A DNA stretch of 55,228 nt from Candidatus Bathyarchaeota archaeon (GTDB taxonomy: Archaea; Thermoproteota; Bathyarchaeia; Bathyarchaeales; Bathycorpusculaceae): NCBI GenBank assembly GCA_903901015.1, contig CAIUPH010000039.1:1-55228 (forward strand), in the 5' to 3' direction. The position numbers and the translations under genes are program-made. Below are positions 13,649 to 21,665 of the stretch, one piece after another. Within the stretch, counting starts at the first letter, position 1; each line of letters starts with the position of its first letter. The notes below the pieces were generated by a model, which saw nothing but the letters and a program-made list of their open reading frames with translations, searched no databases and was not told the origin of the DNA.

Positions 13649-13970
13649 CGTCAGTTATCATACTGCTTTATGCCTTTGCTTATGTAAAATAACGTTTAAG
13701 ATGGATGTTTGATACAGCAATCGATACCTTGCTGACCTTATTTGACATTCAAGAGTTGTTGTTTGTTAGCAATAACATACAAATTTAAACCGCATTTGAT
13801 ATTTTTTCTTCGGGCAAACGGGCATTTATGTGCCTCTAATTTTCTTGAGGGCAACTGGATTTGTTTAATTCTTTTAAAGAAAAATCATGGAGCGTCCTGC
13901 TCGAAAAAGGGTACTTATCCAACAATCAGGTTCGGGCGGTGTTATTACTGGATTTCATATCAGTAAAATG

Positions 13971-13979
13971 ACTATATAG
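13971..13979 (+). promoter_or_regulatory. TATA box of a leaderless gene
   Basis: ACTATATAG is centred 26 nt before the ATG at 14002, the exact spacing expected when transcription begins at the start codon. Confidence 0.5.
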
Positions 13980-14001
13980 TATTTTACTTTTATGAAATGC
14001 C

Positions 14002-14170
14002 ATGAAAAATTCCAATCCACAATATGCCTTCAACAAAACAGAATTACAGTTGCTTAGAGAGCTCGTAGGTAATTGAATTCTTAGAAACACACAAGCGACC
14101 TGAAGGTCAACCATTACCATCTTGGAGCGAATTTTTTTCAAAAGCTAATGACTATGCGGTGATACTCTAA
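14002..14170 (+). pseudogene. Small gene split by a one-base frameshift
   Basis: From the ATG at 14002 the frame reads 24 residues (KTELQLLRELVGN at its end) and stops at TGA. Shifting by one base at about 14066-14070 restores an open frame VIEFLETHKRPEGQPLPSW and on to a TAA at 14170, giving a 56-residue protein in total. The length (169 nt) fits one inserted base. Its promoter is well placed. The family is not recognised; the frameshift may be real or an assembly error. Confidence 0.5.
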
Positions 14171-14195
14171 TGGCGCGAAGGACTCTGCCGCTTGG

Positions 14196-14496
14196 AAGTA
14201 GTAGTACAATCATTTTTTCGTTGTTCAACTACTTTTAAAACAACTCATCAAAGGGCCGCCTCAATTTATTGAGTATTCAACGTTAAATCGAAGATGATTG
14301 GTCCAATATGGTATAAAATGGACGTGAAAGAAGAAGAAGAATGCAAAAATATTTGCGCTTCTTCTTCTACTCAGTAATAGATGATGATGATGAACAACGA
14401 TTTTTTTCTTGTGGTCATCATCAACTAAGCCAAGATAACTATCGCTTTTCCAAATAGAAGTAGTAGTTCTGTAGATTTTGTCGACGACTACTTCTA
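14196..14496. ncRNA. Cluster of four stem-loops with trinucleotide-repeat arms
   Basis: Four hairpins lie within 300 nt. H1 is AAGTAGT/ACTACTT (14196-14234). H2 is AGAAGAAGAAG/CTTCTTCTTCT with an inner GCAAA/TTTGC (14329-14368). H3 is TGATGATGA plus ACAA / TTGT plus TCATCATCA (14385-14423). H4 is TAGAAGTAGT/ACTACTTCTA (14455-14496). Loops are T-rich. No open frame covers the region. H1 and H4 share the same arm sequence. This could be a structured RNA or a DNA-level element; the strand is not determined. Confidence 0.4.
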
Positions 14497-14573
14497 AGCA
14501 TTCTAAACTTTGGGAATTAGCCTTGCGGTAAGAGGTAACGTCCGCGTTAAAACGTCATGCGACGCTCGTTAGA

Positions 14574-14591
14574 CCATTATTAGAATAATGG
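14574..14591. repeat. Perfect palindrome beside a gene end
   Basis: CCATTATT-AG-AATAATGG lies 1 nt past the stop codon of the minus-strand gene at 14593. It could be a hairpin at the mRNA 3' end, although no T-run follows. Confidence 0.5.
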
Positions 14592-14592
14592 A

Positions 14593-14844
14593 CTAGCCGC
14601 TCTTTTCCATTTCAGGCAAACTTTCAATAACCTTCTTTAGGAAAACCTGCAATTTTTCAATGAACTTGTAGAAATCATTTTCATCGATTTCCTTTAACAG
14701 CAGTCCTTTCTCCTCGCCCCAACTAAACGGCGTTGATAAGACTGCGGCTCTCTTATCTTCTAGGTTATCTCGGTGCCGCGAATAAAGATTAAGTGTAAAC
14801 TTGATTTTGTCTAGTGCACGCTTTGGATGATAAAGCTTAGCCAT
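14593..14844 (-). CDS. Hypothetical 83-residue protein
   Basis: An ATG at 14844 starts an 83-residue, mostly helical protein rich in Lys, Leu and Glu, with RALDKIKFTLNLYSRHRDNL and FYKFIEKLQVFLKKVIESL as likely helices. There is no ribosome-binding site, but an A/T-rich TATA-like AAAAATATAGG about 25-30 nt upstream would suit a leaderless mRNA. No family recognised; no operon partner. Confidence 0.6.
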   Translation of the reverse strand: MAKLYHPKRALDKIKFTLNLYSRHRDNLEDKRAAVLSTPFSWGEEKGLLLKEIDENDFYKFIEKLQVFLKKVIESLPEMEKSG

Positions 14845-14970
14845 GAGAAGAAACTTGGCAAGAAAGAACCTATATTTTTTCTTTTTTGTTATAGGTATTA
14901 AAATTTAATTAGAACCACACCTAAAGCTTTTAGAAGGCTAAAGTTGTTTATTTGACAAAGAGCAATCTTG

Positions 14971-15135
14971 ATGTATAAAGCTAAAATTAAAGATAAAATG
15001 TGCACGTGTGGGCATCTTAAAAGTGAACATTCAATTTTTTTAGATAGAGTATGTATTAAACCTAAATGTGAATGTTACAAGTTCGTTTTGAAGGACGAAA
15101 AACAAAAGCTCAATTGTTTAGATTCTGCGTGCTAA
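14971..15135 (+). CDS. 54-residue zinc-ribbon protein
   Basis: This short protein contains CTCGHLKSEH near residues 11-20 and CIKPKCECYKF near residues 28-38, a C-x-C-x2-H ... C-x4-C-x-C pattern seen in small archaeal zinc-binding proteins with a CxCGHxKSEH knuckle. No function can be given. It lies upstream of the gene at 15196 in the same direction. The start ATG lacks a clear ribosome-binding site. Confidence 0.6.
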   Translation: MYKAKIKDKMCTCGHLKSEHSIFLDRVCIKPKCECYKFVLKDEKQKLNCLDSAC

Positions 15136-15195
15136 AAAATGAAGATAGGTAAAACTAATAATCGCTTCAATTGATACTACTATGAGGTCTGGTAA

Positions 15196-15552
15196 ATGGT
15201 GAAAATTAACCTATTGACCTATTTGACTTTCAATTTGAACATGCTCGTTGACAATGGAAAAGGCATGCCGATAAAAGAAACCAGGCAGTTATGCGAACAA
15301 AGAACAATACTTCAAGAGTTGCAAGCACGATTTCCTTTTGCAGAAACACACCTCGACTTATCATCACTAAAGTTACAGCCAGACGCCGAAGAAGAAATTG
15401 AAAACATTTTCCATGAAATGGCAATTTCATTAAAAGACAACGAAATGTGTGTGGCAAACAACGGTTTGTGCCTGTTGATTGCATACGCTCAAGAACAGAT
15501 TCAAAGAGAAACCAGAAAACTTGAAGAGAAAAAAAGCAACGAAAAAGCCTGA
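15196..15552 (+). CDS. Hypothetical 118-residue protein
   Basis: The ATG at 15196 has GAGG at 15184-15187 with 8-nt spacing. The protein is predicted helical: residues about 25-45 (PIKETRQLCEQRTILQELQA) and a charged C-terminal helix ending EEKKSNEKA. No transmembrane segment. It belongs to the AT-rich accessory stretch. Not recognised. Confidence 0.65.
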   Translation: MVKINLLTYLTFNLNMLVDNGKGMPIKETRQLCEQRTILQELQARFPFAETHLDLSSLKLQPDAEEEIENIFHEMAISLKDNEMCVANNGLCLLIAYAQEQIQRETRKLEEKKSNEKA

Positions 15553-15586
15553 TAGCCTAAATTTCAGCATTGATTAAACTAAATAG

Positions 15587-15748
15587 TTTTCGACCCAAAA
15601 AAATAACGCGTTTAGACCGATTTCTGCAAAAGCTCTTTCCAACGTTAGAGCAAAGATCAAGCGATTCGAGCGCAGGGTTAAAGCTGAACAATTACTAGAC
15701 AAAGGCGTTAACCCTGATGAGCGGAAATACCTGCAGCTTCTATATTAG
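15587..15748 (+). pseudogene. Possible gene remnant, start lost
   Basis: There are 53 open codons after a TAG with no ATG, GTG or TTG start. The frame nonetheless reads as a basic helical protein (NVRAKIKRFERRVKAEQLLD, then NPDERKYLQLLY at the end). I interpret it as a remnant, or as a gene with a non-standard start or upstream frameshift. Confidence 0.3.
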
Positions 15749-16117
15749 TCAGCGGCAAACCTTCTGAGCTTTTCCAACTATTCAGAAAAGACCGTTTATG
15801 ATTCCATTAGAGGCTATGAAAATAGAAATATCTGTGATTTCTTTTATCGGTAAACAACATTAATTTTAACTTCATCTATTAACCTCAAAAATCTAATTCT
15901 TGCCCGAAAAAGGCTTAGATACTGTCTTGGCAAGCATAAGCTTATAAAAAATCATGAAGCATCAAGAAATTGTAAACTTGACTACCTTAATTAATTAAGC
16001 GGGATCAGGCTATGATTCGTCAAATATTGGCAGTTATTAAAACTCAAAAATATACGTTTCGAGTCTCAATGTAAGACAAATTAAGAACAAAGTGCTATAT
16101 AATTTAGGTGAATATTT
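15749..16117. other. Intergenic, unassigned
   Basis: AT-rich DNA with no supported gene on either strand. The only feature is the TTTAGGTG just before 16118 that serves the next small gene. Confidence 0.5.
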
Positions 16118-16273
16118 TTGCGTAAACAAAACAGACCAGAAGGATCGACAACCTCCGCCTCTCCAAACAGGAGCAGTATAGCAAGAAAAGCAAATGCTGC
16201 CAATAGTTCGAGGCAGAAGCAAGCAAATGCAAATCGTTCGAGACAGACCCAAGCCGGCAATTCAAAGAAGTAA
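16118..16273 (+). CDS. 51-residue basic low-complexity protein
   Basis: A TTG at 16118 preceded by AGGTG (spacing about 8) starts a 51-residue protein made almost only of Arg, Lys, Gln, Asn, Ser and Ala. It has a loose repeat of ANxSRQ(K/T)QA units (ANSSRQKQANANRSRQTQA). It has no acidic residue except one Glu, so it may bind nucleic acid or be intrinsically disordered. The opposite-strand open frame at 16037-16252 is a shadow. Confidence 0.55.
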   Translation: MRKQNRPEGSTTSASPNRSSIARKANAANSSRQKQANANRSRQTQAGNSKK

Positions 16274-16410
16274 AACAGTATTTTATACTTCTAAATTAAA
16301 TTTTAATTTACCCTGCAAACTTACGGGTTTCAGAAGTTAGCGTAAATCACTAAAAAAGGAAGGAAGAAAGTTCCAGATTCCTTATTTTTTCTCTTACAGT
16401 TTCGTATGGG

Positions 16411-17604
16411 TTACTTTCGAAGTTTTTTTCTTGTCCGCATGGCCACTGCAACTGCACACAGGCTCACAACTCCTACTGCGGCGGCGGAAAAGATTGCTGC
16501 ACTGGTGAACTCTGGTACTGTTGGGCTGGGGGAAGACCCATATGATGGGGATGATGTAGGGTTTGACGAGGTAGATGGGCTGGACGAATCTGAAATGACG
16601 TCGATTGCAGTTGACCCGGCTCCGAATATTTTGCCTGCGCCAGAATCATAGACTACTGACCCAAATGCTTCGGGAACGGTTGCGACAATGGCGTAATTAG
16701 GGGCATCTGAAATAACGGAGTTACCTGCGAATATTTCGCCTTTGGCAGAATCATAAGCTATCCCTGCAACTCCTGATAGCCCAGTTACGGTTGCAACTAC
16801 AGTGTTTGTTTTGTCTGATATGACGTAAACAGAGTTGGCGTAGCTGTCTGCAACGAAAATCAGCCCTTTGTTGGGGTCATAAGCTAAGGCGGAGGGGTAG
16901 CCTTCCATGTTAATGGTTGTGACTACGGTGTTATTACTGTCTGCTATAACTGAAACGGTTTTTGAGACTATATTGCCAACGAAAATTTCACTCATACCTG
17001 AATCATAAGCGATAGCTTTTGGAAAGACTCCGACTAGTATGCCTTCACTGATGGCGTTGTTGTTATCCGAAATTGCGTAGACCCCTCCGGGTTGATTTCC
17101 GTTTGTTGGGCCTGCATCGGTTACGAAGATTTTGTGTTGCCCCGAATCATAAGCTACAGCCCATGGGGACCACCAATGGCTTGATGTTAAGTTTGCAACT
17201 AGTTCGAGGCTGCTGTCTGATATAACCGTAACCGTAGGGGCTTCACCCATAGACGTTGCATAGCCTGAGGCGACGAATATTTCGTTCATGCCAGAATTAT
17301 AAGCTATACCACGAATGCCACCTACATCAGGTATGGATACGCTTGCAACCACTTTGTTTGTGTTGTCTGATACAACCGAAACATTGTTGCCAAAGCCGAA
17401 ACCGGTAACGAATATCTCATGTTGTCCAGAATCATAAGCCATTGTATTGGTTCCATATCCATTATACGCTGTACTGCTGGTTAGCAACCCAGTGATCTCG
17501 GACGATATTGAAAGCGTTGGAATGGCGTGAACCATGCTGACCGCTGACATCGCAAAAATCGTAATTAGAATTAGACTTAAAAGTTTCCAAACTTTAACTT
17601 TCAT
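16411..17604 (-). CDS. Secreted YVTN-type beta-propeller with PEF-CTERM-like anchor
   Basis: The protein has 397 residues from the ATG at 17604, where GGAAGG is better placed than for the TTG at 17628. It has a signal peptide (about residues 1-27), then about seven blades, each with an AYDSGxxxIFVxx strand and a VxVISDxxNxVVAT strand. A Ser/Pro/Thr linker leads to VPEFTSAAIF, a hydrophobic helix and RTRKKLRK. PEF at this position is the hallmark of PEF-CTERM archaeosortase substrates, so the protein is probably processed and displayed on the surface. Propellers of this type bind partners or ligands. Confidence 0.85.
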   Translation of the reverse strand: MKVKVWKLLSLILITIFAMSAVSMVHAIPTLSISSEITGLLTSSTAYNGYGTNTMAYDSGQHEIFVTGFGFGNNVSVVSDNTNKVVASVSIPDVGGIRGIAYNSGMNEIFVASGYATSMGEAPTVTVISDSSLELVANLTSSHWWSPWAVAYDSGQHKIFVTDAGPTNGNQPGGVYAISDNNNAISEGILVGVFPKAIAYDSGMSEIFVGNIVSKTVSVIADSNNTVVTTINMEGYPSALAYDPNKGLIFVADSYANSVYVISDKTNTVVATVTGLSGVAGIAYDSAKGEIFAGNSVISDAPNYAIVATVPEAFGSVVYDSGAGKIFGAGSTAIDVISDSSSPSTSSNPTSSPSYGSSPSPTVPEFTSAAIFSAAAVGVVSLCAVAVAMRTRKKLRK

Positions 17605-18013
17605 AATATTTTTCCCTTCCTTCTTCAATTCAAAATTCCTATTAGTTTCACAGTGTTTCTTTCATATATAAGCTTAATAACGAATAATTGCGAGACACAA
17701 ACGCCTTGGTCTTCCAACGACATAAACCCGTATTTTTTGCGGTTGAATTTTAATCTTTCTCTCTCTTCGTTTTTTCACATCTACGTATATACGACTATTT
17801 ATGATTCTTTACTTGCTTTTACTCTCTCTCTTATACTAAAAACATTTAAAACATTTTATCTCACGTACACAGAGATAGATATCACACACAAACAGACAAA
17901 GACATAGAAAACAAAAGTGAATTAAGGCTTAAATCTGCAGAACGCAGAAAATTGCCTAAAAGATAAAAAAAACTAAAAGCGTGAATTACTAACTATAAAT
18001 ACAAGTGATTTAA
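17605..18013. other. Intergenic, unassigned
   Basis: Strongly AT-rich. It holds the promoter region of the propeller gene and a TATA-like CTATAAATAC at about 17992-18002. The plus-strand frame at 17653-17907 has no ribosome-binding site and an unnatural composition (Leu/Phe/Thr/Tyr runs). Confidence 0.5.
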
Positions 18014-18235
18014 TTGGGCAATGGTGCGATTATACCATTAATAATAGGCGTATTATTCCTCTTAATCGCAATTGGTTGGATGATAATCATTGCAGTATCT
18101 CCAATTGCAATTGTCAACCCACAAGACATGCCACAAGAATGGTGGAATGGAATTGTAAGAAATGCGATAATTATTGGGCCTTTTGTATTAGGTGTTCTCT
18201 TAGTAATCGTCAGTATTGTGTTGTCGAGGCATTAG
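18014..18235 (+). CDS. Small two-helix membrane protein
   Basis: From a TTG at 18014 the 73-residue product has two strong transmembrane segments (about residues 5-30 and 47-70) with a short PQDMPQEWWNG loop. There is no Shine-Dalgarno element, and the nearest TATA box lies only 12-20 nt upstream, so the true start may be slightly later. No family recognised. Confidence 0.55.
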   Translation: MGNGAIIPLIIGVLFLLIAIGWMIIIAVSPIAIVNPQDMPQEWWNGIVRNAIIIGPFVLGVLLVIVSIVLSRH

Positions 18236-18280
18236 TGACTAGTAATAATTAATGTTCAAAAATATGTTTCTGAGCTGAAG

Positions 18281-19663
18281 CTATGTTCTTTTAACAATTT
18301 GTTCATATGCATCTTTTATCTTGATGTATTTCTCATTAGCCATTTGCTTGACTCTTTCGTCCTCAGTCACAAATTTGTCTGGATGCCAGATTTGAGAAAG
18401 GTTCCAAAAAGCCTCTTTGGCTTGTTGCTTGGTGGCAGTTTTCGGAATCCCCAAAATTTCATACGGGTCATCTGAACTTGGTTTCGGCTGGTTAGGTTGA
18501 CCTCGTTTTTTCTGGTCTTCTTCCTCTTTTCTTTTGGCTTCCTCTTCAGACTTCTGTTTCGCCTTTTTTGCTTCTTCTGCCTCTCTTTTTTTCTTCTCTT
18601 CAGATTTCTTTGCTTCTGCATCTTTTTTTTCGCGTGTTCGTTTGTTTTTTTGTTGATTGACTAAGAGGGTTATTGATATTGCAAAAACTCCAATGACAAA
18701 GGCAACTACGTAAATCAGAATGTAATCGTTAGATTGTGAAGTTTTTGAAGGCGAAAATGATGACGATGGTGAAGGGAAAATAAGCGAAGTTGGAGATGGT
18801 GTTAGAATTGAAGTTGGGTTAGAAGTTGGTGATTGTGAAATATTAGGGGAAGGATTTGGTGGATTAGGAGTTGGAGTGGTGGTGGCTATTGGTTGTATAT
18901 TTCCTCCTGTCATTCTAAAATAGTCAAAGTCTGCCGAGAAGCTCACTGTAGGTCCGAAATTTACAACATAGAGTCCAATTGAAATAGGGTCGCTTACTGG
19001 TAACGTGTAGTTTGCAAAGTTCATCCAGTTTGTTCCATCTGCACTGTATAAACCCGTAAATACATCGCTAATTCGATTAACTTTTAGATAAGTCGGGTTT
19101 AAGGCGGTGTTGAATAGGAATGATTGCTGAGCTTGTCCATTTTTTATAATGGTTAGACTAATTGTCTCGTTAGAATTAGCATAATATCTTTCAAACCTCA
19201 GAAAATTGTTAACGTCTTTCCAGATGTAGATTCCAGCACATTCCCATTGTTGATTTGGCATAGCCAAAATTTTAGTTTCAGCAACAAAATCCCCAGATAT
19301 TCCAGTTAGTTCAATTCGGGGAGCATTATAGTTTTTACTTATTTGCCACAAATCCATGTTAGGTTGAGAAGTTATTCTCAAGTAGCCAGCATTAGAAGTT
19401 AAGCTAAATGTTGAGCTTCCAGTAGGGTCAATGACTGTCCATCTGCTGTTAAGAACAGTAGTGTTAAATTCATCATTGAAAGAGGGCGCTCCATTTGGAG
19501 ATGACGCTACAGACTGAGCGTTAGCAAGATACCCTGAAAATGAATAGGTGACTGAAAAACAAGATATAACTAAAAAACATAGGAAAACAAAAGATAATGC
19601 TCTGTTCAATTTGTCACCGTCAGGATATTTGTTCATACGCAATTTAAGTCTATTCTTGTGCAT
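18281..19663 (-). CDS. Membrane protein with external lectin-like domain and cytoplasmic J domain
   Basis: The protein has 460 residues, in order: signal/anchor segment (about 24-50); a LamG/DUF1349-like beta-sandwich (about 60-260; FNDEFNTTVLNSRWTVIDP, WECAGIYIWKDVNNFLRFER, FDYFRMTGG); a Pro/Ser/Thr linker; one transmembrane helix (about 320-343); a Lys/Glu-rich helix (about 345-395); and a C-terminal J domain (about 400-460; DPYEILGIPKTATKQQAKEAFW, HPD in IWHPDKF). J domains stimulate Hsp70 ATPase. Here the J domain would face the cytoplasm and the sandwich the outside. I know of no named family with this arrangement. Confidence 0.85.
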   Translation of the reverse strand: MHKNRLKLRMNKYPDGDKLNRALSFVFLCFLVISCFSVTYSFSGYLANAQSVASSPNGAPSFNDEFNTTVLNSRWTVIDPTGSSTFSLTSNAGYLRITSQPNMDLWQISKNYNAPRIELTGISGDFVAETKILAMPNQQWECAGIYIWKDVNNFLRFERYYANSNETISLTIIKNGQAQQSFLFNTALNPTYLKVNRISDVFTGLYSADGTNWMNFANYTLPVSDPISIGLYVVNFGPTVSFSADFDYFRMTGGNIQPIATTTPTPNPPNPSPNISQSPTSNPTSILTPSPTSLIFPSPSSSFSPSKTSQSNDYILIYVVAFVIGVFAISITLLVNQQKNKRTREKKDAEAKKSEEKKKREAEEAKKAKQKSEEEAKRKEEEDQKKRGQPNQPKPSSDDPYEILGIPKTATKQQAKEAFWNLSQIWHPDKFVTEDERVKQMANEKYIKIKDAYEQIVKRT

Positions 19664-19731
19664 TGTTTGAAAAAATAATTACATGACTTAAAATCTTAAA
19701 TATTTAAGAATTGGAGGTCTAAAACCAATAA

Positions 19732-19740
19732 GTCTTAAAT
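19732..19740 (+). promoter_or_regulatory. TATA box of a leaderless gene
   Basis: TCTTAAATC lies about 27 nt ahead of the ATG at 19764. Confidence 0.4.
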
Positions 19741-19763
19741 CTACACAGGATAGATAGAAACAA

Positions 19764-20252
19764 ATGGAAATGACAAAGGATATGGATAAAGACGGATTAC
19801 TTTGGAAATTGATAGAAGCAGGGCACAATGCGATTTTTGTATGGGTTGCTGTCTACGTTGCTTCAGGCATTGGACTAATTCAAATGATAATTGAAATACT
19901 CAAAATACATACCTTGCTATCTTTTAGTTTGATGGTTTTCGGAGCAATTTATTTCTTTTTGGTTTGCTTAATGACGTTGTCATTGTATAACATATTTAAA
20001 ATAATGCACCACCAAAATGATTGGGCAAATAAACTATTTCCTAAAGAATCTCCTGAAAAATCAGAATTAAGAAAAATCTATTTTGGTAGCAGGTCTTGGT
20101 TAAGCAAATACGTAGTTGGGGAGACGGATGTTATGACTACATGGGTAAAGATTGGCTTAGTTTTGCATTTTTTAGGTTTTCTCGGTTTTGGTTTAGGCAT
20201 TTGGCACATGAACCTATTTTTTCATTGGTTTATCCATACTTGGGGTCTTTAG
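19764..20252 (+). CDS. Hypothetical membrane protein
   Basis: This 162-residue protein has four likely transmembrane segments: about 23-45, 52-78, 126-142 and 145-160. A polar loop (HHQNDWANKLFPKESPEKS) sits between helices 2 and 3. It is divergent from the J-domain gene, and the promoter spacing suggests a leaderless mRNA. No family recognised. Confidence 0.65.
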   Translation: MEMTKDMDKDGLLWKLIEAGHNAIFVWVAVYVASGIGLIQMIIEILKIHTLLSFSLMVFGAIYFFLVCLMTLSLYNIFKIMHHQNDWANKLFPKESPEKSELRKIYFGSRSWLSKYVVGETDVMTTWVKIGLVLHFLGFLGFGLGIWHMNLFFHWFIHTWGL

Positions 20253-20550
20253 ATGGTCTCTCTAATTCAGATTGAATTCTTTTAAGTTCTCTTTAGACCA
20301 AACTAGACTACGACCGCGCATACATGATTTCTTATTGGACTATGCCCTTATGGCGTATTCATATCTTGAATTTGTGCCGTCGTTGTTTTAGATTCTGGGG
20401 CTGTTTATGTGGTTTGCGGTATTCGCTTTTTCAATCCAGCCCCCTGTTAGAGCTGCCTGATGATTTTAGGTCAACTCTAATAGAGAAGTCTCAAAGACTA
20501 AAAACTATAGTTTATTAGGAAGTTTTCAGATTGTTCGTTGCACGCTAAAT
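20253..20550. other. Intergenic with possible decayed membrane-protein fragment
   Basis: The frame at about 20339-20450 reads YALMAYSYLEFVPSLF-stop-ILGLFMWFAVFAFS before further stops. This could be a decayed membrane gene, but the support is weak. The rest holds the tRNA promoter region. Confidence 0.3.
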
Positions 20551-20627
20551 GCGGTAATAGTACAGCTTGGTCAGTACATAGGCTTGCCAAGTCTAGGACC
20601 CGGGTTCAAATCCCGGTTACCGCACCA
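20551..20627 (+). tRNA. tRNA-Gly (GCC)
   Basis: The cloverleaf is complete: acceptor GCGGTAA/TTACCGC, D arm GTAC/GTAC, anticodon stem TAGGC/GTCTA with loop TTGCCAA (anticodon GCC), a 4-nt variable loop, T arm CCGGG-TTCAAAT-CCCGG, discriminator A and an encoded CCA. There is no intron. It decodes GGC and marks the right end of the AT-rich accessory stretch. Confidence 0.95.
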
Positions 20628-20855: not shown

Positions 20856-21665
20856 TCAGTGTTGTTGATCAATTTTCAGGGAGGTCATCGTTATGGAACC
20901 GCCGACGGGTTTATCGTTGAAAAGCGAGATTTCCTCGTTTTCCCCTTTTAACGCCAAAGCATAGAGAAGAGGCAGGTAATGTTCGGGCGTGGGAATCGCC
21001 AATTCAAATGCTCTGCCCTGAGAACGGTAATTAATTAACCGTTTGTGGTCGTTGTTGAGGATGTACTTTTTCATTTGTTCACTTGCTTCTAATGCCCAGT
21101 CGTAGCCAAACCCAGCTGCGTCAAAGTTGTCCCATGCAATCAACCCTAAATTATGAACCATGTTTCCGCTGCCAATAATCAACACTCCCTTCCTGCGCAA
21201 AGCAGTAAGCTCCTTCGCCAAGTCGTAGTGTAACAGGGCGGGTTTCGTATTGTCCAGGCTCAATTGGACGACGGGAACATCTGCGTCTGGGAACATGCGT
21301 TTTAGGACTACCCAGCAGCCATGATCAAGCCCCCACTCATAATCCAAACCTACTTTCGTTTTGGTGATGATTTCCACGATTTCCTTAGCTAAGTCAAGAT
21401 TTCCCGGCGCAGGGTACTGCACTTCGTATAGTTCTTGTGGAAAACCGTAGAAGTCATGGATAGTCTGGGGGTTCTCCATCGCCGTCGCAAAAGTGCCTTT
21501 GGTTTACCAGTGTGCCGATATGCAAAGCACAGCTCTGGGTTTGGATATTTGTGCCGCGATGTCCCTGAATCCAGCCACGAATTCGTTTTCTTCGATGCCG
21601 TTCATTGGGCTGCCATGTCCTACAAACAGCACGGGCATCAACTGGTCATCTTCGCCGCGTTTCAT
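20856..21665 (-). pseudogene. YgiD-type extradiol (LigB) dioxygenase, interrupted by TAA
   Basis: The frame runs 270 codons from the ATG at 21665 (or 21638) to 20856 but contains a TAA at 21504-21506. Upstream it reads PVLFVGHGSPMNGIEENEF and AVLCISAHW; downstream TKGTFATAMENPQTIHDFYG. Together they align end to end with the LigB-like 4,5-DOPA dioxygenases (YgiD), whose motif is SAHWYT, so the stop replaces a Tyr codon. Zinc ligands in HGSP, SAHW and NMVHNLG are intact. Either the gene is inactivated or this is a single-base error. A downstream ATG at 21479 would give a protein lacking the first ligands. Confidence 0.8.

Follow-up and report, generated by a model that had tools for sequence, protein, structure and literature searches.

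A membrane-anchored J-domain protein with a lectin-like ectodomain in a Bathyarchaeota genome, and relatives with other exteriors

A gene of Candidatus Bathyarchaeota archaeon, located in the window analysed here (the whole 55,228-nucleotide stretch of contig CAIUPH010000039.1), was found to encode a protein in which a signal peptide, a beta-sandwich, a Pro/Ser/Thr-rich linker, a transmembrane helix, a charged helix and a J domain with the HPD motif follow one another. By its gene content the organism is an archaeon, probably one of the Bathyarchaeia. This order, proposed in a first-pass annotation made from the letters alone, was borne out by Pfam, hydropathy and composition. The layout is real and recurrent and has no name in Pfam or NCBIfam, in agreement with the same annotation, which knew of no named family of this kind; yet the inside half resembles bacterial DjlA. 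Class C membrane J proteins such as DjlA are known, and the present proteins differ from them in having swappable ectodomains and an ER/K rod, and no TerB domain. The protein probably acts as a membrane-tethered class C J protein, that is, a DjlA-like DnaK tether with a large exchangeable ectodomain.

Architecture and topology of the protein

The open reading frame is complete from ATG to stop, with the frame intact, and was divided into the following parts.

18281..19663 (-): gene of the J-domain protein, 460 amino acids, type I membrane (ORF and Pfam)
19517..19663 (-): signal peptide, residues 1-49 (basic n-region, hydrophobic core 22-40)
18908..19477 (-): extracytoplasmic concanavalin-like beta-sandwich, GH43_C2/DUF1349, residues 63-252 (Pfam, AF2, Foldseek)
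18728..18898 (-): Pro/Ser/Thr-rich linker, residues 256-312 (composition, AF2)
18656..18727 (-): single transmembrane helix, residues 313-336 (hydropathy)
18479..18655 (-): charged stalk, ER/K-type single-helix rod, residues 337-395 (composition, AF2)
18299..18469 (-): C-terminal J domain with DjlA-like loop and end, residues 399-455 (Pfam, NCBIfam, AF2)
18377..18385 (-): HPD motif, intact, residues 427-429

Hydropathy placed the signal-type helix at about residues 22-40, preceded by five K/R residues, and a plausible cleavage site, judged by eye, would lie between ANA and Q. Residues 63-252 matched GH43_C2 (1.3e-15; 58.1 bits against a cut-off of 22.7) and DUF1349 (1.7e-14; 54.3 bits against 32.4), both above the curated Pfam cut-offs. 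The AF2 model, which was built from only five sequences, presented a beta-sandwich of moderate confidence, poor at residues 37-93, a linker predicted to be disordered (pLDDT < 50 at 258-310), one continuous helix over residues 312-385, and a confident J-domain block (pLDDT 82-94). Foldseek ranked the DUF1349 protein 3mep (TM-score 0.71-0.75 by target) and the C-terminal modules of GH43 proteins first, followed by galectins and L-type lectins (ERGIC-53, VIP36). The description of the exterior as lectin-like was therefore fair, while the label LamG was imprecise, as no LamG family matched and the fold is that of the DUF1349/GH43 C-terminal module. The likeness to this module (3mep; the C-terminal module of GH43 beta-xylosidases) extends over the whole domain and fold; GH43 proteins, however, carry a catalytic domain, whereas Pfam found only the C-terminal module here, the catalytic five-bladed propeller being absent, and the ectodomain is joined via the membrane helix to a J domain. 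The linker consists of S, P and T at 67%, and of five N-X-S/T sequons in the protein three fall within the ectodomain and a fourth within the linker.

The transmembrane helix is flanked by one K/R in the 15 residues before it and six in the 15 residues after it, and because of this balance the ectodomain is placed outside and the J domain inside; the converse orientation, named in the first-pass annotation as a finding that would overturn its proposal, was thus rejected. The same positive-inside topology was obtained, from hydropathy and charge only, for two of the relatives described below (G062 and G033).

The stalk (residues 337-395) is devoid of L, I, V, M and F and holds 41 E/D-K/R pairs at i+3/i+4 against 22 expected, a number reached by 0 of 1000 shuffles. 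A salt-bridge excess of like kind was present in the stalks of the three relatives, being reached by 28 (G062), 0 (G021) and 3 (G033) of 1000 shuffles. Since no heptad pattern was found in any of these four stalks, a coiled-coil dimer is not supported; its composition and charge spacing are those typical of an ER/K single alpha-helix. At 1.5 Å per residue, the 49-59 helical residues past the membrane would span about 7-9 nm.

Residues 399-455 matched DnaJ in Pfam (1.8e-10, above the curated cut-off). The Pfam matches shown included neither a DnaJ zinc finger nor a client-binding domain of the C-terminal kind, and the chain ends with the J domain.

Relatives with exchanged ectodomains

Relatives were searched in 91 genomes of the family, in which the genome of the present gene is designated G000. 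The J-domain search recovered mainly canonical DnaJ and a few other proteins, and the subfamily proved rare, with four members in 4 of the 91 genomes (G000, G062, G021 and G033). These four scored above 100 bits with the subfamily J alignment, which was itself built from them, while a soluble protein of G012 scored 74 and everything else less than 47. Extension of the J-alignment search to 398 genomes of the phylum yielded no further close member, the G012 protein, which has no transmembrane helix and bears the motif HPA, being the only other subfamily-like J protein.

The G062 protein, from another genus, has 649 amino acids and comprises a signal peptide, a CARDB-containing ectodomain, P/T linkers, a transmembrane helix, a rod and a J domain; the search for the same architecture in other archaea, which the first-pass annotation had recommended, thus recovered the order linker, transmembrane helix, charged helix and J domain in an independent genus. 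The G033 protein, from a genus-mate, has 832 amino acids, with a signal peptide, Asn/Gly-rich repeats (read as a beta-helix), InlB-type repeats, a Gly/Ser linker, a transmembrane helix, a rod and a J domain in which HPD is replaced by AYD. The G021 protein (213 amino acids) has two transmembrane helices, a rod and a J domain, and no ectodomain. BLAST between the ectodomains of the G000, G062 and G033 proteins detected no similarity.

Two of the ectodomain families also occur apart from the J half. Five J-less DUF1349 proteins with plain C-terminal transmembrane anchors, sharing 32-37% identity with the ectodomain, were found in four genomes (G027, G058, G059 and G060), and a tandem paralogue beside the G033 gene, with 66% identity, stops just after the transmembrane helix and has no J domain. 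The presence of the same ectodomain families on plain anchors indicates that ordinary surface proteins gained or lost the J half on more than one occasion. As judged from these comparisons of sequence, the unit of transmembrane helix, rod and J domain recurs with ectodomains that are unrelated to one another; this suggests a rare, modular strategy for placing Hsp70 at selected sites on the membrane. A viral origin was considered and rejected: no relatives were found on viral contigs with the whole protein and the J alignment as queries, and phage and plasmid matches were limited to a DUF1349 domain or a J domain alone. The J-domain tree, built on short domains, left 14 of its 19 inner branches open.

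The inside half was compared with known membrane J proteins. DjlA (E. coli b0055 and relatives) likewise has one N-terminal membrane helix and a cytoplasmic J domain at its C-terminal end, and the long DjlA-type loop that follows HPDK and the KGF/KGW ending of the last helix are present in the G062, G021 and G033 proteins; E. coli DjlA ends IQQAYELIKQQKGFK and the G062 protein ends IQQAYEEIMKAKGWT. In NCBIfam, DjlA ranked top for all three HPD-bearing members, over the J part only and well under its cut-off, the J part of the G000 protein reaching 36 bits against a cut-off of 162. A plasmid search with the transmembrane-rod-J half of the G062 protein gave Legionella DjlA as sole match (44% over the J domain). 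DjlA, however, has a short periplasmic N-terminus, whereas the G000 protein has a signal peptide and an ectodomain of about 200 amino acids, with about 260 residues outside; and where DjlA carries TerB between membrane helix and J domain, the G000 protein carries the rod, with no TerB domain found by Pfam. Small signal-TM-J proteins of other Thermoproteota (L133, L134 and L136) share the order and topology, with HPD intact, but have a short outside segment and a full-length J domain of canonical type that does not group with that of G000. Sec63 and ER-lumenal J proteins, which are membrane J proteins too, were some of the proteins that matched the G000 J domain weakly in sequence; they have the J domain on the lumenal side and several transmembrane helices, in contrast to the cytoplasmic J domain and single helix of the G000 protein.

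The DnaK link and the proposed function

The G000 genome contains one DnaK, encoded with grpE and dnaJ (grpE-dnaK-dnaJ) on contig C22. An HPD-bearing J domain, the lack of DnaJ zinc finger and client-binding domains and a cognate DnaK in the genome place the predicted protein among the class C membrane J proteins. DnaK is also present in G021 and G062, and HPD is intact in all three members from DnaK-positive genomes. In G033, which is 90% complete, no HSP70 and no canonical DnaJ were found, and GrpE is cut down to its N-terminal part (Pfam positions 7-104 of 165), the gene with the AYD motif lying 1 kb from this remnant. On the G033 contig C122, AlaRS (82% identity to G031), TiaS and a flippase-like gene keep the arrangement seen downstream of dnaK in G031, and because this order is kept, the absence of dnaK is more than a missing contig. 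In this disrupted dnaK locus (L070:4615-4971 and G033 contig C122), a MobL relaxase/TraG-like element lies between the GrpE remnant and the AlaRS block, with no dnaK. These MobL/TraG genes raised the possibility of a misbinned contig, which was rejected by the syntenic AlaRS, TiaS and flippase genes. The decay of HPD alongside the loss of dnaK, seen in one genome, fits a putative DnaK-dependent role of the J domain, and G033 offers a compact test case, with dnaK lost and the J motif decayed.

In the reading considered probable, the signal peptide would export the lectin-fold domain, which may hold the protein at a surface ligand such as a glycan, the cell coat or another surface protein. The transmembrane helix would cross the membrane and the stiff ER/K rod, about 7-9 nm long, would carry the J domain into the cytoplasm, where HPD presumably stimulates the single DnaK of the cell, directing it to putative membrane-proximal clients near the ligand of the ectodomain. 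Against this reading stand the weak helix II basic patch described below, the small number of transmembrane members, four in all, the single genome in which HPD and dnaK were lost together, the many open branches of the J-domain tree, the few sequences behind the AF2 model with its poor stretch at residues 37-93, and the lack of a conserved neighbour gene that would mark a client or pathway. Through a set of J proteins whose exteriors can be exchanged, contacts at the archaeal cell surface would be linked to the chaperone system.

A tentative alternative is that the protein recruits the chaperone to the membrane for protein export or membrane-protein assembly, the ectodomain being a mere location anchor or passenger. 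The plain-anchored proteins with the same ectodomain families are in accordance with it, as are the G021 protein and the small L133 and L136 proteins, which have no sizeable ectodomain, but the loci read showed no linkage to genes of Sec or of any other export system.

Less probable, and on the whole unlikely, is a true transmembrane receptor, in which an outside ligand would cause the J domain to cluster or to change its position, with DnaK activity as the signal output; the proteins would then form an archaeal surface receptor family, with interchangeable exterior sensors on one transmembrane-ER/K rod-J effector and Hsp70 recruitment as output, and outside binding would decide where or when DnaK remodels membrane proteins. 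Receptor families do have such a layout, in which the cytoplasmic half stays constant and the ectodomains are swapped, and DjlA can switch on the Rcs relay, for which its J domain, its membrane anchor, DnaK and GrpE are required (PMC11709261). Hsp70 tethered at the membrane can thus control signalling, yet almost nothing of DjlA is outside, and its effect on the relay appears upon overproduction. Moreover, a disordered, flexible-looking P/S/T linker would not easily pass a conformational change, and the rod consists of one isolated helix instead of a coiled coil. The first-pass annotation had coupled an outside binding event to cytoplasmic Hsp70. The Hsp70 part of this claim gained indirect support from the grpE-dnaK-dnaJ genes and the HPD/DnaK pattern, while the transmission of an outside event did not, a constitutive tether explaining the same data; transmission of an outside signal by the J protein is possible.

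That the J domain has no Hsp70 function and persists as a module for structure or binding is more improbable still. The helix II basic patch is weak compared with E. coli DnaJ (R22 to K, K26 to W and R27 to N, aligned by eye) and the G033 version lacks HPD, both in favour of such a module, but the motif is intact in every transmembrane member of the DnaK-positive genomes and the HPD-less member sits where dnaK was lost.

Finally, an assembly or gene-prediction artefact fusing a surface protein to a J protein, which the first-pass annotation had named as a possible refutation and which could be suspected from the occurrence of the exact ectodomain-J pair in one genome and from the fragmented assembly (117 contigs), can practically be dismissed, because the frame is single and open, GC is even along it (ectodomain 0.37, linker 0.41, stalk 0.38, J domain 0.39), and independent genes in G062 and G033 repeat the layout with mutually unrelated ectodomains.

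Genomic setting and further J-domain genes

Comparison with the corresponding locus of G016 delimited the following features.

13940..20489 (.): interval of about 6.5 kb holding the J gene, with no same-site counterpart in G016 (locus comparison)
20551..20627 (+): tRNA-Gly (gcc) bordering the insert, also found at this site in G016

Within the interval, only about 70 bp, at 20294-20360, have a G016 counterpart. The flanks keep the G016 order, with ParA/HTH genes to the left and an ABC transporter to the right, and the interval between the conserved flanks measures about 3.2 kb in G016 against 8.8 kb here. The J gene has a GC of 0.377 and a GC3 of 0.31, compared to GC3 values of 0.45-0.59 in the measured window genes outside the insert. 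The gene is accessory and was probably acquired next to the tRNA gene; the GC3 gap and the absence from the same G016 site uphold the earlier description of the host stretch as AT-rich and accessory. No conserved neighbour gene pointing to a client or pathway was present in the loci read. The same insert contains a gene (16411-17628) for a secreted YncE/NHL-like beta-propeller with a Ser/Pro linker and a C-terminal transmembrane helix. Outside the insert, the LigB-family dioxygenase gene at 20856-21479 looks truncated, with an in-frame TAA at 21504-21506 compared to the 260-amino-acid copy of G018.

Other genes were noted during the searches. Divergent J-like proteins of 126-135 amino acids, from three genera (L074:2521-2910, L075:5475-5855 and L076:5737-6144), have in common the C-terminal motif LEDT..VQSILPE.VKPAPLGKT..ELW, and in G210 (L122:5090-8362) a J domain is inserted between the two helicase halves of an SNF2-type helicase. 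A conserved gene of about 134 amino acids with no Pfam match immediately precedes grpE in DnaK-positive relatives (L125:2808-3209 and L126:4901-5350). Furthermore, Pfam identified GvpL/GvpF proteins with a fused C-terminal J domain in G075 (L073:5259-6242), G002 (L072:3044-4027) and G085 (L078), the G085 copy being cut by the contig end. A second, divergent DnaK directly follows these genes; the two look like a dedicated Hsp70-J pair, and the G075 surroundings look like a gas-vesicle cluster.
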